Positions 37,652 through 63,619 of a stretch of DNA of 64,000 nt are shown here, one piece after another. The position numbers were made by a program, and so were the translations under genes. The DNA comes from Virgibacillus sp. AGTR. GTDB lineage: Bacteria > Bacillota > Bacilli > Bacillales > Amphibacillaceae. The notes under the pieces were generated by a model. The model worked only from the letters and a program-made list of their open reading frames with translations. It made no database searches and was not told the origin of the DNA. The stretch covers positions 1 through 64,000 of the forward strand of contig NZ_JAJERH010000002.1 in NCBI RefSeq assembly GCF_016919725.2. The letters run 5' to 3'. Each line of letters starts with the position of its first letter. The stretch's first letter is position 1.

Positions 37652-40600
37652 TTACTTCCACTTTTTAATTAGCTTATCAGCTTGTTTTTGAAAGCTATCA
37701 AAAGCTTTATCAGATATTACATCTTTTTCTAATTGTTGATCAAGTAGACTTTTCCACCCCTTCATGTGTTTCACTACTTTTTTTGCTTTTTGTTTATTTT
37801 CATAACGACTCACTGCTATCAAATGTAATTCTAATTCATGGAAAGCATCTGCCGTGTACACTTTATCACGATTATCACGAAGCGACTTCAACAATGATTG
37901 TGTACTCGTATCTTGATGCCGTTTTGAAACAAAAACATTTAGTTCTGCTGCGGAAGCAAATCCTCCAACACCTTCAATTGCTTCTAATTTAATATGCGAC
38001 GCTTCTATTGAATCAAAACGAATACTTTTTTCCGCTTTATCGTTACTCCACTCTCCATTTGCTATTTCTCTAAAATTTTCACCATCGGTACTAGTATACA
38101 GCTTGTATTTAGTAATAATTCCATTAGTCCCAGACTGTCTAGGTAAATAGGTAACTTCATTAATTTCGTGCTTGCCCCCAAGGTCTAGGGTGATAGATTG
38201 TGGCAACTTATCATCTCCAGACCAATCCGTATGCCACATCGTGTTTTGGTTTCCATCAATAGCATTTTCGGCTGGGTCAGAACCTGATTGTTCGCTCGTT
38301 GCAGTTGCAGTCATCTCCGATTGTTTAAGTTTATATGGATCCATAATAGACACGTTCGAATAAGCATTAGTGGTATAATCATCTCCACTCTGTTTAAATG
38401 TCGAATGGGCTACTATATCATATTCACCTTCGCCTGTATGCTCTGGAGGTATTAATGTGAATGTGGCAGTGACCTCTTTATCCTTATCCAGCTTATTAAA
38501 CAAAGCGTTTGTCGATCCATCTACTTCCCACCCATTAGGTACTTCTAATGAAAGTAGCACATCTTTCATTTTTTTGGTCGAACCATTCAGAAAGCTTGCT
38601 GTCACAGTAATGGGATCTCCAGCTTTTTTCTCATCCGGTACTTCCAAGCGAAATAATGCTGCAGGATCACCTTCGTCATCTCCTACACTACTGGATCCAT
38701 GTATTGTCATTGTGAAGGATTCACTCGTTGACATTGGTTTGGTCTTTATGTGTACAATACCGTTACGATCTTCCGCATCATAGTACCAACCTTCACTTGC
38801 CTTTGCAAAATCTTCCTTCGAATCATATTCCATTAATTTCTTGCCTTTTCCGATCCCTACATTTGCAGGTTTTTCACCTGTATGAACAGTAAAGGTATAC
38901 GGCCTGCTTTCTGGTTTTCCATCATATTCGCCATCGCTGGAACCAACTGTAATCTCAATATTACCTTTACCATTCTTCGGTGCGTTGGTTGTAATTAATT
39001 GTTTAGCCGAGGCTCCATCTTGATACTCCCGACTAATACCATCATCCTCATATAAGGAGAAACTACTTTCGCCATGGGGATAAATATCGAGTATCACTCG
39101 ATGATCATTGGCTAATTCTTTAAAGGAATTATTTTCCGGCCACATCGGAATAATCGCACCAGCTTTAACAAACAGCGGAAGTTTATCTAATGGTGCATCA
39201 TAATCGTTCACGATACGTGGTCCGTTATAAACTTTACCACTCCAATAGTCTAGCCATTTCCCTTTTGGTAAATAAATCCCATCTCGTGTTTCTGTATCTT
39301 CATATACCGGAGCAACAAGCATGGATTCGCCAAACAAGTATTGATATTGTGTCGTTTTATTCCAAGTTACAGGGTCGTCAGGATATTCTAACACCATGGA
39401 GCGAGCTAAAGGTACGCCGCTTTGATGTGCCTCTGCCGCATAGGTATATATATAAGGCAAAAGCTGTTGTCTTAGCTTTAAGTATTTTCGGTTTATGGAG
39501 GTATACGGTTCTCCATACCTCCATGGCTGTTTATCTGTATCCGCCCAGCCTGACATGCTCATTAATACTGGATTAAATACTTTCCACTGTAAGTCTCTTA
39601 CGTATGTCTCTGCACTTCCACCAAAAATCCCATCAATATCTCCTGTTGTGAATGCCTGCCCAGATAATCCGGAACCAGCAATTGTTGGAATATGAAAGCG
39701 AATGTTTTCCCATGATCCTGTTTGATCACCAGTCCACTGAACAGCATAACGTTGAGCCCCGGACCAACCTTCAACCATCCAGGTAAAGCCCCGTGCGTTA
39801 CTATTTTCTTCGATGCCTTGATAGGCTTCTTTTGCAGCGTTTAATGCAAATCGATAACCTGGTCCAACCCAAGCAACATCTAATTTTCTAACACGGACTC
39901 CTGCTTCACTAACTTCATATTCCTGATCTGGCAAGCCGTCTTCTGTCCATAGCCCAAGTTCAATATTCCGGTCTCTTAATTCTTGACCTACTTCCACCAG
40001 ACCTTCATAGCCACAGCCATACCCATCATTAACAAGCATCCAGCCTACAGGCATGTCGTATTGTAGATACCCATTTGCCACCTCTAGAGAGTCTATAGTC
40101 GTTTGCCCTTCGTCATTATAGCAATCTGCATCGCCAAGCTCCAGACCATATAATGGCGGCATAAAAGGTCGACCAGTAAGCTCAGTATAACCGTCCAGAA
40201 TCTCTTTTAAATCAGGTCCATAAAAATAATAGGAGTCAAATCTTTTTTCTTTGTGTATTGTCTTTACTGGGTCGTTAAAGGAATAAGATCCAGGAGAAAA
40301 GGTGTTTCGAAAAACGCCATAACCACTTGTACTCATATAAAATGGAACAGCATTCGGATGTCCACCATCTTCCCAATTATAAGAGGTGGATATTTCTATC
40401 GTTTCATCTCTATGAGTAAATCGACCATTTTGCATACCACCACCAAAGAACTGTTCTTCTTCAGCACGTTTTAATGTTTGTCTCGTTTCTTCATCATCCC
40501 ATGATAACCCTTTCATTTCCTTCCATACAACGGTTTTATTGTCTGATTCATATAGCTCAAACCGCAATGGCTGTTTATAAACACGCAATGTCACATCTTT

Positions 40601-40945
40601 GGTATCAATACGATAGTAATCTCCTTCATTAGACCAATTCGTTGTTAACTCTGGAAATTCATGTTTTACGATGATATCTTCTCCAGCCGGATCCGTAAAT
40701 TCTCCATCTTGAGCCAACCAAATCCGGAACATATCATCCTTGTAAAAAACAACACGAACCTTTGCATCACCAGCGGATAACGTATAGGTGTTCTCTTCCA
40801 CAGAGAAGTCTGTAAGATTCCCAATTACAGTTTCATCTTTTTGCTCCTCCTGCGCAAAACTAGCTGATGCCAACATTGTAAGCGCAACTATGATAACAGC
40901 GTTAGAGACGAGGAATTTTAAAAGTTTCTCCACTTTATTAATCAC
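37652..40945 (-). CDS. Secreted GH31 glycosidase, alpha-N-acetylgalactosaminidase-like, with NEW3-like and F5/8C (CBM32) domains
   Basis: A 1097-residue secreted enzyme. Signal peptide about 1-31 (hydrophobic run, ASASFA-Q); N-terminal beta domain about 40-250; GH31 barrel about 260-520; DUF5110-type beta domains to about 690; NPCBM/NEW3-like domain 762-868; F5/8C carbohydrate-binding domain about 872-1006; helical C-terminus. The usual WxDMNE of alpha-glucosidases is absent. Instead VRKLDVAWVGPGYRF gives likely nucleophile Asp356, and QWTGDQTGSWE gives acid/base Asp407, with RFHIPTIAGSGLSGQ following. This pattern recalls the GH31_18 alpha-N-acetylgalactosaminidases, from memory. Start GTG at 40945 has a weak TAGGAA site. 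Substrate could be glycoprotein or other GalNAc-bearing glycans. Confidence 0.8.
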   Translation of the reverse strand: MINKVEKLLKFLVSNAVIIVALTMLASASFAQEEQKDETVIGNLTDFSVEENTYTLSAGDAKVRVVFYKDDMFRIWLAQDGEFTDPAGEDIIVKHEFPELTTNWSNEGDYYRIDTKDVTLRVYKQPLRFELYESDNKTVVWKEMKGLSWDDEETRQTLKRAEEEQFFGGGMQNGRFTHRDETIEISTSYNWEDGGHPNAVPFYMSTSGYGVFRNTFSPGSYSFNDPVKTIHKEKRFDSYYFYGPDLKEILDGYTELTGRPFMPPLYGLELGDADCYNDEGQTTIDSLEVANGYLQYDMPVGWMLVNDGYGCGYEGLVEVGQELRDRNIELGLWTEDGLPDQEYEVSEAGVRVRKLDVAWVGPGYRFALNAAKEAYQGIEENSNARGFTWMVEGWSGAQRYAVQWTGDQTGSWENIRFHIPTIAGSGLSGQAFTTGDIDGIFGGSAETYVRDLQWKVFNPVLMSMSGWADTDKQPWRYGEPYTSINRKYLKLRQQLLPYIYTYAAEAHQSGVPLARSMVLEYPDDPVTWNKTTQYQYLFGESMLVAPVYEDTETRDGIYLPKGKWLDYWSGKVYNGPRIVNDYDAPLDKLPLFVKAGAIIPMWPENNSFKELANDHRVILDIYPHGESSFSLYEDDGISREYQDGASAKQLITTNAPKNGKGNIEITVGSSDGEYDGKPESRPYTFTVHTGEKPANVGIGKGKKLMEYDSKEDFAKASEGWYYDAEDRNGIVHIKTKPMSTSESFTMTIHGSSSVGDDEGDPAALFRLEVPDEKKAGDPITVTASFLNGSTKKMKDVLLSLEVPNGWEVDGSTNALFNKLDKDKEVTATFTLIPPEHTGEGEYDIVAHSTFKQSGDDYTTNAYSNVSIMDPYKLKQSEMTATATSEQSGSDPAENAIDGNQNTMWHTDWSGDDKLPQSITLDLGGKHEINEVTYLPRQSGTNGIITKYKLYTSTDGENFREIANGEWSNDKAEKSIRFDSIEASHIKLEAIEGVGGFASAAELNVFVSKRHQDTSTQSLLKSLRDNRDKVYTADAFHELELHLIAVSRYENKQKAKKVVKHMKGWKSLLDQQLEKDVISDKAFDSFQKQADKLIKKWK

Positions 40946-41285
40946 TTCCTATCGTTTAAAATTATTCTCTCTTCCTAGCTATAAAACTAGCTTTTAAAAA
41001 ATGCCCCCTCCTTCGTAGTCGATTACGTTATTGAAGTAATACTAGCCAAAGTAATCCTTCCATTCTTCTGGCTTCCCATTAGATTTAAAAATCATGTGGT
41101 TATAACCAGTTGTTTAGAGTATAGATTCTTTCCTTAATATTTAAAAGGGTATTTTTATTCAAAATAAACACACTACTATTAGACTATCTCTATTAATTTA
41201 GTACTTACGTTTTAACCATACATAGAAAAGAGAAGTGGATGACTGATTTAATCATACAAAACGTTTACTTTTTAATTGTTTAGGA
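40946..41285. other. Upstream region of the GH31 gene
   Basis: No gene seen. A minus-strand AGTAAACGTTTTGTA at 41254-41268 resembles a cre site and could give CcpA control. A small palindrome GCTATAAAACTAGC lies near 40978-40992. GAAGGAGGGGGC (minus, about 41005-41016) looks like a ribosome site without a start codon. Confidence 0.35.
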
Positions 41286-61622: not shown

Positions 61623-63521
61623 TTAAATTGGCAGTACGTGAAAGAATACATTAGGTGATGCCATCCGATAATAATAACTTGACCATCCTAAGCCTGTAGA
61701 GTTTTCAATGTCATGATAATACAATCTTTTTTGTTCCAATTCGTCAATAAAATCGATTTCTCCACTTACATACTCATTAATTCGATAAATAGCAGTTTCC
61801 AGCCTTGACTTTAAGCCACCGTAGCGAATATCAATTACTTCCCAGCCAAACGGCTTATGCATATGTAGCCATTGTTTACGATGGGCCAAACGTAACACCT
61901 CTGCTTTATCTATTATTTCAGGAAGTACCTGATCTGCAATATGCTTTAATTCTTTGTTATCCCCTCTATCATAGGCTGCTTTTAATTGTACACCGATCGT
62001 TGCTTTCACACTCAACAATTCAGCCAACTTTTCTGGGACATCAAAAATATAATCCAACGCATTATTTCCATCTCTTGATACACGTATCTTGTTTGCTAAT
62101 GCTTTGTAGTGGGAATATAAATCAAGTCCTTCCACATGTTTATCAAATAAACCCAATAATACATCTTGCCATAGTAAAAATTTTGATGGATTCGTTTGTT
62201 CCTTATTATTTGGATCTACACCAGGTATGGCATCAAGCTCATTTAATAGTAGGTAAGTCTCTGCATCAATACCGGTGCAAAACTTCACCCGATCATGAAG
62301 CTTGCTTCTATCCAACGTTCGTGCATACGCATGCTCAGCATATAATTGTAACCCTAACATTGCTGAAAAATAATTATTTTCATAACCGTCATCTCCCCAT
62401 AGCGTTACAAATACGTCTTGAATACCCTCTTGTTTACAAGCCTGTAATGCCGCATCACTTGCCCCAAGAGACAAGCCATAATTTGTGGCAAATGTATTCC
62501 AAACCCATATTCCACCTGCAAAGGCAGGCTTCCTTCCGAATGCTTTGTGCTTTTTCATCATTGCCAGATATTCTTCCTTCTTCGTATGTGCATAATCCCA
62601 ATACATGAGGGTAACATTCTTCGGTGTTGCTTCAATTATTTCATCAGGAATTTCAGTCATTAAATCATAATGGGCATCCCCCGTTTTAGAGGCAAGCTTC
62701 ATGAACATATCACTCCACATCATTGGCATCAGTCCATTTTCGTCCACAATTTCAAGCACTCTATTCAGGTGACCAGTCATTAATTCCAATCTATCTTTAT
62801 GTCCGAATTTATTTAGATACACGCCTCTCCCAAGTTCTTCTGCTTCATCCATACCAATATGAATTCGCTTACTTCGGAAAGGCTTCGTTACTGACTCTAT
62901 CATGTCTCTAACAAATGTATAGGTAGCTTCACTTTCAACTAACAGTACACCGCGCGTATCCTTTAATCCACTTGCATCACTCCATTTTAAAAATTCCTCT
63001 AAATGAGCAAGTGTTTGAATACATGGTATAAGCTCAATACCAAATTGATGGGCATAATCATCCAGCTGGTTTAATTGATCTAGAGAATACCTTCCCCTCA
63101 TATAACCGAAATATGGTTGGCTTTCAATTTCATATACATCCTCCATGTATAGCATTGCAGAATTAAAGCCCATTAGTGCTAGCTTACGAAGCATATCCTC
63201 AAATCGTTCTGGTTTCATTACTGCGTTTCGTGATAGGTCAAACATTGGACCAATAGTTTCAAACTGTGCATCCTCTTCAATATGGAATGTTTTTGACCGA
63301 GCATAGTTCTCTAACAACAAGCCTAATCCTCTGAAGAAAGCCGCTTTCTTATCATAGACAATTTCCCCTTGACCATTCTTTAATGAAACTGACAACCCTT
63401 TATCAGCTTGTTTAATTAAAATAGGGATACCATCTTCTGCTAATTCAAAATTCAAATCTGATTGTAATTCTTTTATTGCAGATAACAGATTATTTGTAGC
63501 GCCTTTCAGCATTAGCTTCAT
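61623..63521 (-). CDS. GH20 beta-N-acetylhexosaminidase, cytosolic
   Basis: A GH20 enzyme of about 632 residues without a signal peptide, so intracellular. The catalytic Asp-Glu pair is in RIHIGMDEAEELG (Asp225/Glu226 from the ATG at 63521); an N-terminal GH20b-like domain covers about 1-85 and the barrel about 90-390 (FDLSRNAVMKPERFEDMLRK, WVWNTFATNYG, VTLWGDDG). It removes terminal beta-linked GlcNAc/GalNAc from imported chitooligosaccharides. The frame is open to 63536, but GGAGG lies 9 nt before the ATG at 63521. Lies between an ABC permease gene and the lactonase gene, all on the minus strand. Confidence 0.9.
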   Translation of the reverse strand: MKLMLKGATNNLLSAIKELQSDLNFELAEDGIPILIKQADKGLSVSLKNGQGEIVYDKKAAFFRGLGLLLENYARSKTFHIEEDAQFETIGPMFDLSRNAVMKPERFEDMLRKLALMGFNSAMLYMEDVYEIESQPYFGYMRGRYSLDQLNQLDDYAHQFGIELIPCIQTLAHLEEFLKWSDASGLKDTRGVLLVESEATYTFVRDMIESVTKPFRSKRIHIGMDEAEELGRGVYLNKFGHKDRLELMTGHLNRVLEIVDENGLMPMMWSDMFMKLASKTGDAHYDLMTEIPDEIIEATPKNVTLMYWDYAHTKKEEYLAMMKKHKAFGRKPAFAGGIWVWNTFATNYGLSLGASDAALQACKQEGIQDVFVTLWGDDGYENNYFSAMLGLQLYAEHAYARTLDRSKLHDRVKFCTGIDAETYLLLNELDAIPGVDPNNKEQTNPSKFLLWQDVLLGLFDKHVEGLDLYSHYKALANKIRVSRDGNNALDYIFDVPEKLAELLSVKATIGVQLKAAYDRGDNKELKHIADQVLPEIIDKAEVLRLAHRKQWLHMHKPFGWEVIDIRYGGLKSRLETAIYRINEYVSGEIDFIDELEQKRLYYHDIENSTGLGWSSYYYRMASPNVFFHVLPI

Positions 63522-63619
63522 AACTAATTCCTCCAATTTCCATTATAGAATATGCTAACATCTAAATTTATAACTTAGTTAGAGATTATATGTGCCAAAG
63601 TGTCCGTGTAATCCTACGT

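Follow-up and report, generated by a model that had tools for sequence, protein, structure and literature searches.

The window analysed here is a stretch of 64,000 nucleotides from Virgibacillus sp. AGTR (positions 1 to 64,000 of contig NZ_JAJERH010000002.1, forward strand), and the gene under study occupies 37652-40945 on its minus strand. The reading frame is uninterrupted, with all 1097 codons open, ruling out a chance open reading frame (ORF) or a broken gene. PF13802, PF01055, PF21365 and PF17137 each exceed the Pfam gathering score and together give the full domain set of glycoside hydrolase family 31 (GH31), the PF01055 match (E 1e-29) covering model positions 190-327 of 328 only. As set out below, comparison at the sequence level indicates that the product is very probably a secreted GH31 alpha-N-acetylgalactosaminidase belonging to an AgaR2-type N-acetylgalactosamine (GalNAc) regulon. 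Residues are counted from the first GTG throughout. Translation probably begins at the second GTG, four codons further on (residue 5, at 40933), because AGGAAGTG lies upstream of it at a normal distance and the ortholog in G020, a genome of another genus in the same family, has an ATG at this place.

Catalytic aspartates and placement within GH31

The original prediction, made from the letters of the window, had noted that the WxDMNE nucleophile motif was absent and had picked out two aspartates as the catalytic pair. Both observations were borne out: the motif does not occur in the 1097-codon protein, and D356 (in RKLDVAWVGP) and D407 (in QWTGDQTGSW) lie 51 residues apart. The best matches in the PDB were the four entries of the E. 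faecalis GH31 alpha-N-acetylgalactosaminidase (6m76, 6m77, 7f7r and 7f7q; 458-462 bits, best E 4.6e-137), the next solved enzyme by sequence being FjDex31A at 260 bits, and the catalytic modules of the window protein and the E. faecalis enzyme were 40% identical when aligned with MAFFT. According to the entry titles, the counterpart of D356 is replaced by Ala in 7f7q (D455A, with para-nitrophenyl (pNP)-alpha-GalNAc) and by Asn in 7f7r (D455N, with Tn antigen). D407 we take, from what is known of GH31 enzymes, to be the acid/base. Both aspartates lie just after barrel strands in the predicted model, and the KxDVAWVG and WTGDQ motifs are both present in the window protein.

Relatives were collected from named genomes by searching for two of the group's peptide patterns, and the best 80 of 116 were kept; the invariance counts given here are valid for that 80-locus sample. 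The alignment held 90 group rows (the window protein and the E. faecalis enzyme included) and 18 other GH31 sequences. Asp is found at D356 in 90/90 and at D407 in 90/90 group rows, while the flanking residues vary a little among the 17 rows printed (DVAWTG in L068, WSGDQ in L062 and L112, WTGDH in L025). The 'non-canonical active site' of the original prediction is therefore an apt description against GH31 overall and an inapt one within the group: because both aspartates are invariant and most of the motifs are fixed, a site that is unusual for GH31 is normal for these enzymes.

In a 61-row tree, 49 group rows, among them the E. faecalis enzyme as the sole characterised group member included, were split from 12 other GH31 rows with an SH-aLRT of 100; this was a quick tree without bootstrap, and FjDex31A was flagged by the program as a meeting point of long branches. 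No placement in another GH31 subfamily was seen in this one tree. The E. faecalis enzyme and its relatives have been published under the label GH31_18 (the available parts of PMC11790493 and PMC13096917), and GH31_18-type membership of the window protein is supported by its grouping with one characterised enzyme, as distinct from a match to CAZy's own subfamily models.

Predicted structure

A structure was predicted from a 27-row alignment (mean pLDDT 83). The four E. faecalis entries took the top four rows both in Foldseek (30-31% identity, over longer alignments) and in VIA-align, where they gave Z values of 42.8-43.0 over 726-755 residues at 1.9-2.6 A and 36-37% identity. The next VIA-align row was an alpha-xylosidase with a Z of 41.5 and an identity of 23%, and other GH31 structures in the VIA-align rows shown ranged from 36.6 to 41.5. 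Since the alpha-xylosidase comes so close in Z at so low an identity, the fold alone cannot separate the subfamilies, whereas sequence can.

A putative operator shared with a GalNAc operon

The original prediction had also seen no GalNAc catabolic genes nearby, which holds inside the window and fails for the contig: an aga-type operon lies at 89429-97341, 48 kb from the GH31 gene and 25 kb past the window end. It encodes a tagatose-6-phosphate-type kinase, a class II aldolase, a deacetylase, components IIA, IID, IIC and IIB of a phosphotransferase system (PTS), AgaS and a GntR-UTRA protein, and the genome's only AgaS and EIID matches lie in it. The NCBIfam N-acetylgalactosamine transporter models are passed by IIB (218.4 against a cut-off of 180) and by IIC (393.7 against 300), whereas the galactosamine models are passed by IIB (198.9 against 180) and failed by IIC (214.3 against 300). 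The aldolase passes GatY and the deacetylase passes NagA, which is named for N-acetylglucosamine-6-phosphate (we use the name AgaA by context); AgaS, IID, IIA and the kinase score best with Aga or LacC models, below the cut-offs. The regulator heading the operon (238 aa) has GntR and UTRA domains above cut-off, is 78% identical to its G020 counterpart and reaches the cut-off of no NCBIfam equivalog. A search with LacD of G020, run with no positive control, found no match in the Virgibacillus genome; the aldolase encoded in its operon is of class II.

The leader of the GH31 gene contains an exact 15-bp palindrome, AACTGGTTATAACCA, at 41097-41111, directly after TATACT. In the available part of PMC4694137, a gel shift is reported in which AgaR2 of S. 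suis bound TTGTGGTTATAACCAGTT, a site ahead of the E. faecalis gene EF1809, and the reverse complement of that site agrees with the window's in 17/18 bases. An equivalent place ahead of the operon's GntR gene, 56 kb from the GH31 site, is taken by AACTGGTAATAACCA, and in G020 the palindrome precedes both the GH31 gene and the operon; TATACT is likewise followed by the operator in front of the aga operon and in both places in G020. Throughout the 4.7-Mb Virgibacillus genome, matches with at most one mismatch numbered two, both exact and located before GH31 and the aga operon. Within the window, only positions 41094 and 25025 carry sites with at least 14/18 bases. As a separate observation, an imperfect copy (15/18) lies between GntR and AgaS (L108:14554-14571), so that AgaS may have a regulated promoter of its own.

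The palindrome was then followed in 15 chosen genomes, the 9 of the family that carry such a GH31 and 6 of 7 genus mates. Exact sites amounted to 16 rows, or 15 places in 12 genomes, the program giving control counts only for matches at up to one mismatch. Twelve of them precede an AgaS by 0.26-0.93 kb, two are in the GH31 promoters of the Virgibacillus genome (G000) and of G020, and the last precedes the GH31 of G180 by about 1 kb. An exact site is lacking in G007, G108 and G151, and near the GH31 itself none was found in 6 of the 9 GH31-bearing genomes.

Neighbourhoods of relatives

The G020 ortholog is 80% identical to the window protein overall and 84% over the catalytic module, and its gene stands directly upstream of GntR, AgaS, PTS, AgaA, kinase and LacD-type aldolase genes, with a galacto-N-biose-type phosphorylase (GH112) further upstream (genes in L022 and L023 were named by sight and by BLAST to the Virgibacillus operon, except for GH112 and the LacD-type aldolase). 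Of the 159 family genomes searched, a GH31 of this kind was present in 9 (E at most 1e-80) and AgaS in 41 (E at most 1e-60); 9/9 GH31-bearing genomes have both, an overlap with a chance of 2.5e-6 if genomes were independent, which related genomes are not. In all nine, GH31 and AgaS share a contig at distances of 2 to 55 kb. Six of the nine belong to a second branch of the group, described below; these loci (L112-L117, in G151, G179, G087, G180, G149 and G108) have longer ORFs (1383-2078 aa) and are AgaS-linked.

On the window's side of the group, Nocardioides has GH101, DeoR, SIS, ROK, PfkB, class II aldolase and GH31 genes in a row, and Scopulibacillus has GH123 just upstream of GH31. When the 80 named loci were searched by BLAST with the operon proteins (flanks of up to 8 kb), AgaA was found at one (E. 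caccae), EIID at four, and kinase with aldolase at four (all Nocardioides); the Kribbella loci have GH2 alone beside GH31 (14/14). Neither Kribbella nor Gracilibacillus was named among the papers listed by a literature search for such GH31 enzymes.

Accessory domains and other genes of the window

The features of the window are collected in Table 1. Pfam found both the NEW3-like and the F5/8C domain that had been read from the letters, and the PDB kin of the latter by sequence search are modules of glycoside hydrolases. It also found a C-terminal FIMAH domain that had gone unremarked.

Table 1. Features of the GH31 locus and a possible partner gene (positions in the window; residues counted from the first GTG).
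Feature	Position	Strand	Remarks
GH31 alpha-N-acetylgalactosaminidase-like gene	37652..40945	minus	whole ORF counted from first GTG, 1097 codons
Putative N-terminal signal peptide region	40853..40945	minus	about residues 1-31; helix 2-26 in the model and hydrophobic sequence
Gal_mutarotas_2 (GH31 N-terminal domain)	40286..40759	minus	residues 63-220, Pfam
GH31 TIM-barrel match, PF01055	39443..39850	minus	residues 366-501; barrel proper starts near residue 265
Asp356 codon, predicted nucleophile	39878..39880	minus	aligns with E. faecalis D455
Asp407 codon, predicted acid/base (WTGDQTG)	39725..39727	minus	aligns with the E. faecalis pair
GH31 C-terminal domain, PF21365	39149..39418	minus	residues 510-599, Pfam
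DUF5110	38879..39094	minus	residues 618-689, Pfam
NPCBM_assoc (NEW3) domain	38408..38626	minus	residues 774-846, Pfam
F5/8 type C (CBM32-like) domain	37940..38308	minus	residues 880-1002, Pfam
FIMAH domain	37667..37855	minus	residues 1031-1093, Pfam
TATACT, likely -10 box	41118..41123	minus	directly upstream of operator; read from sequence
Putative AgaR2-type operator AACTGGTTATAACCACAT	41094..41111	minus	17/18 bases as in the published, gel-shifted AgaR2 site
GH20C-type hexosaminidase, possible partner of GH31	61623..63536	minus	PF18088; 21 kb from GH31

FIMAH is also carried in this genome by the GH101, NamZ and GH3 proteins, a beta-lactamase-fold protein and two Exo_endo_phos proteins; with this range of carriers it resembles a general module for secreted proteins, and we rejected it as a substrate-specific part. 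FIMAH-ending Exo_endo_phos, NamZ, beta-lactamase-fold and GH3 proteins stand in a run on another contig (L122:100-8653, contig C207), perhaps a peptidoglycan-recycling cluster. Beyond the stop of the G020 ortholog, in another frame, L022:17520-17700 still reads like part of FIMAH; the common ancestor thus probably had the domain, which then decayed in G020. By title and abstract, a literature search on FIMAH returned only papers about E. coli fimbriae or virulence genes.

The window neighbours of the GH31 gene are unrelated (a BCCT carrier, an amidohydrolase, a cytosine/purine-type permease and NlpC/P60), and coupling to the amidohydrolase and the permease was rejected, no operator-like site lying near either. 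ABC-transporter-like genes, judged by sight, follow the hexosaminidase gene (L107). Elsewhere the genome has a GH112 and a 1399-aa GH101 endo-alpha-N-acetylgalactosaminidase, which shares a terminal FIMAH with the window GH31 (L120:7835-12034, contig C35); no AgaR2-type site with at least 14/18 bases was found near this GH101 gene, and a search of the genome for GH123 gave no match.

Weighing the assignment

A number of observations weigh against an alpha-N-acetylgalactosaminidase that serves the aga operon. The group splits into two deep branches, and the long edge between them (length 1.19, support 100 in the 61-row tree) parts the window's branch (Bacillaceae, actinomycetes, metagenomic Bacteroidota and Acidobacteriota, and one Microbulbifer) from that of the E. 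faecalis enzyme (which also takes in streptococci, Collinsella and the like, and six genomes from the same family as Virgibacillus sp. AGTR). Residue 272 is Asp in 57/57 rows of the window's branch and His in 33/33 rows of the other, and residue 465 is Ser in 52/57 (with 2 Asn, 1 Asp and 2 gaps) as opposed to Asp in 33/33, rows outside the tree having been assigned to a branch by identity to the window alone. His also stands at 272 in 18/18 other GH31 rows, where the alignment is less certain because it fails to bring the WxDMNE nucleophile onto D356. By counting elements in the model, 272 is placed close to the end of the first barrel strand and 465 immediately after the last strand; with Asp272 and Ser465 replacing His and Asp, pocket details differ between the branches, and several loops are shorter than in the E. 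faecalis enzyme. The one characterised member that was placed by sequence, the E. faecalis enzyme, stands on the other branch, and none of those placed on the window's branch is an assayed enzyme. A Hoskinsella member is described, in the available part of the source, as cutting pNP-alpha-GalNAc and no natural substrate among those tried.

The genomic context has its own counterweights. AgaS was near GH31 in 0/80 of the named loci, and the flanks of the nearest named relatives (B. pakistanensis, Rossellomorea and Scopulibacillus) held no operon genes. All seven other genomes of the genus (one of them 75% complete) have AgaS without such a GH31, and the aga operon thus does not need the enzyme. 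As for the operator, a reversed control gave 7 matches against 2 at up to one mismatch in the Virgibacillus genome and 31 against 42 over the 15 genomes; single-mismatch sites therefore mean little, and it is the exact matches, with their locations, that carry the argument.

In light of these differences, we considered a same-branch GH31 that cuts another alpha-galacto-sugar, either galactosamine (GalN) of fungal or bacterial polymers or alpha-galactose, with GalNAc release as a side activity. Such an enzyme would fit the shorter loops and the two clade-specific residues close to the active site, Asp272 and Ser465, as well as the predominance of soil or water genera among the branch's named hosts in the tree. 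The galactosamine cut-off is also exceeded by the operon's IIB, at a lower score than for N-acetylgalactosamine, and GalN/GalNAc use is mentioned in the available part of PMC4694137. Yet IIC fails the galactosamine model outright, the operon has a NagA-type deacetylase, which an N-acetylated sugar needs, and the residues flanking both aspartates are mostly kept. The genome moreover encodes GH101 and GH112, enzymes tied to GalNAc-containing core 1 glycans, and GH101 recurs in the Nocardioides cluster. We thus regard another galacto-sugar as an improbable main substrate. An ordinary GH31 alpha-glucosidase or alpha-xylosidase, to which the common fold and the Z values of up to 41.5 for other GH31 structures might point, is more improbable by far, and we rejected it on the PDB sequence scores and the tree: the 12 other GH31 rows form a separate clade, WxDMNE is lacking, some 200 bits separate the E. 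faecalis entries from the next solved enzyme, and both the regulator site and the operon are of the GalNAc type.

Taken together, sequence, tree, catalytic residues, fold, the neighbourhoods of some relatives, co-occurrence with AgaS and the shared regulator site support the original guess of an alpha-N-acetylgalactosaminidase. The enzyme would be secreted, retaining and exo-acting, with Asp356 as nucleophile and Asp407 as acid/base, and would strip terminal alpha-GalNAc outside the cell. Its likeliest target may be the core GalNAc of O-glycoproteins after the rest of the chain is gone, alongside the genome's GH101; core GalNAc as the main substrate is the choice we favour, with a good measure of reserve. 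The mannose-type PTS would import the sugar as GalNAc-6-phosphate, and the deacetylase (AgaA), AgaS, tagatose-6-phosphate kinase and tagatose-bisphosphate aldolase could then feed glycolysis, the operon's GntR protein presumably holding both transcription units off until a pathway signal appears. A more speculative view, which we hold to be possible if rather doubtful, is that the window protein represents a mostly environmental alpha-N-acetylgalactosaminidase branch with a rebuilt pocket, whose real substrates might be alpha-GalNAc (or GalN) of microbial, fungal or invertebrate polymers, not animal mucin, and whose aglycone demand might be unlike that of the gut enzymes.

With several independent lines of evidence behind the assigned function, one of them a regulator site common to two places 56 kb apart, the gene is a ready candidate for assay. 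The enzyme type is already known, and the gene offers a new and well-supported example of it, belonging to a little-studied branch with distinct pocket residues. It points to that whole branch of soil actinomycetes, Bacillaceae and environmental Bacteroidota beside the gut enzymes; the branch could be useful for studying how such enzymes choose the neighbour of the sugar, and might yield new tools for core-GalNAc removal. A further lesson is that the pathway explaining a gene can hide outside a 64-kb window.

Comparison with known systems

FjDex31A (6jr6-6jr8), a GH31 dextranase, is the next best solved GH31 after the E. faecalis enzyme, but acts on another substrate and clusters with the other GH31 rows. 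Removal of core GalNAc from mucin-type glycoprotein is reported, in the available parts of the sources, for Akkermansia Amuc_1008, B. theta BT3169 and a B. caccae GH31: Amuc_1008 acts on mucin core GalNAc and not on Tn antigen (PMC11790493), and BT3169 is active on desialylated mucin and inactive on Tn or blood group A (PMC11992087). These three are likened to the window protein by reported activity.

Akin to the AgaR2 regulon of Lactobacillales, as given in the available part of PMC4694137, the Virgibacillus system combines a GntR-family regulator, a GalNAc operon and a near-identical palindrome (17/18), but here a second copy of the putative site, 56 kb from the one at the operon, precedes a GH31 gene. 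Repression of the aga operon by an AgaR of the GntR type is reported for S. pneumoniae, where the operator is a different one (available part of PMC5018945).

The closest system is the E. faecalis GH31 alpha-N-acetylgalactosaminidase (6m76, 6m77, 7f7q and 7f7r), which has the same two aspartates, motifs and fold. The window protein differs in standing on another deep branch with Asp272 and Ser465 instead of His and Asp, and in being shorter between the barrel landmarks by 10, 12, 2 and 6 residues. One loop is about 43 residues shorter, at 36 against 42 in a joined copy of the E. faecalis sequence that itself lacks 37 loop residues. The E. faecalis protein is named an LPXTG-motif protein in the PDB, whereas the window protein has NEW3 and FIMAH.

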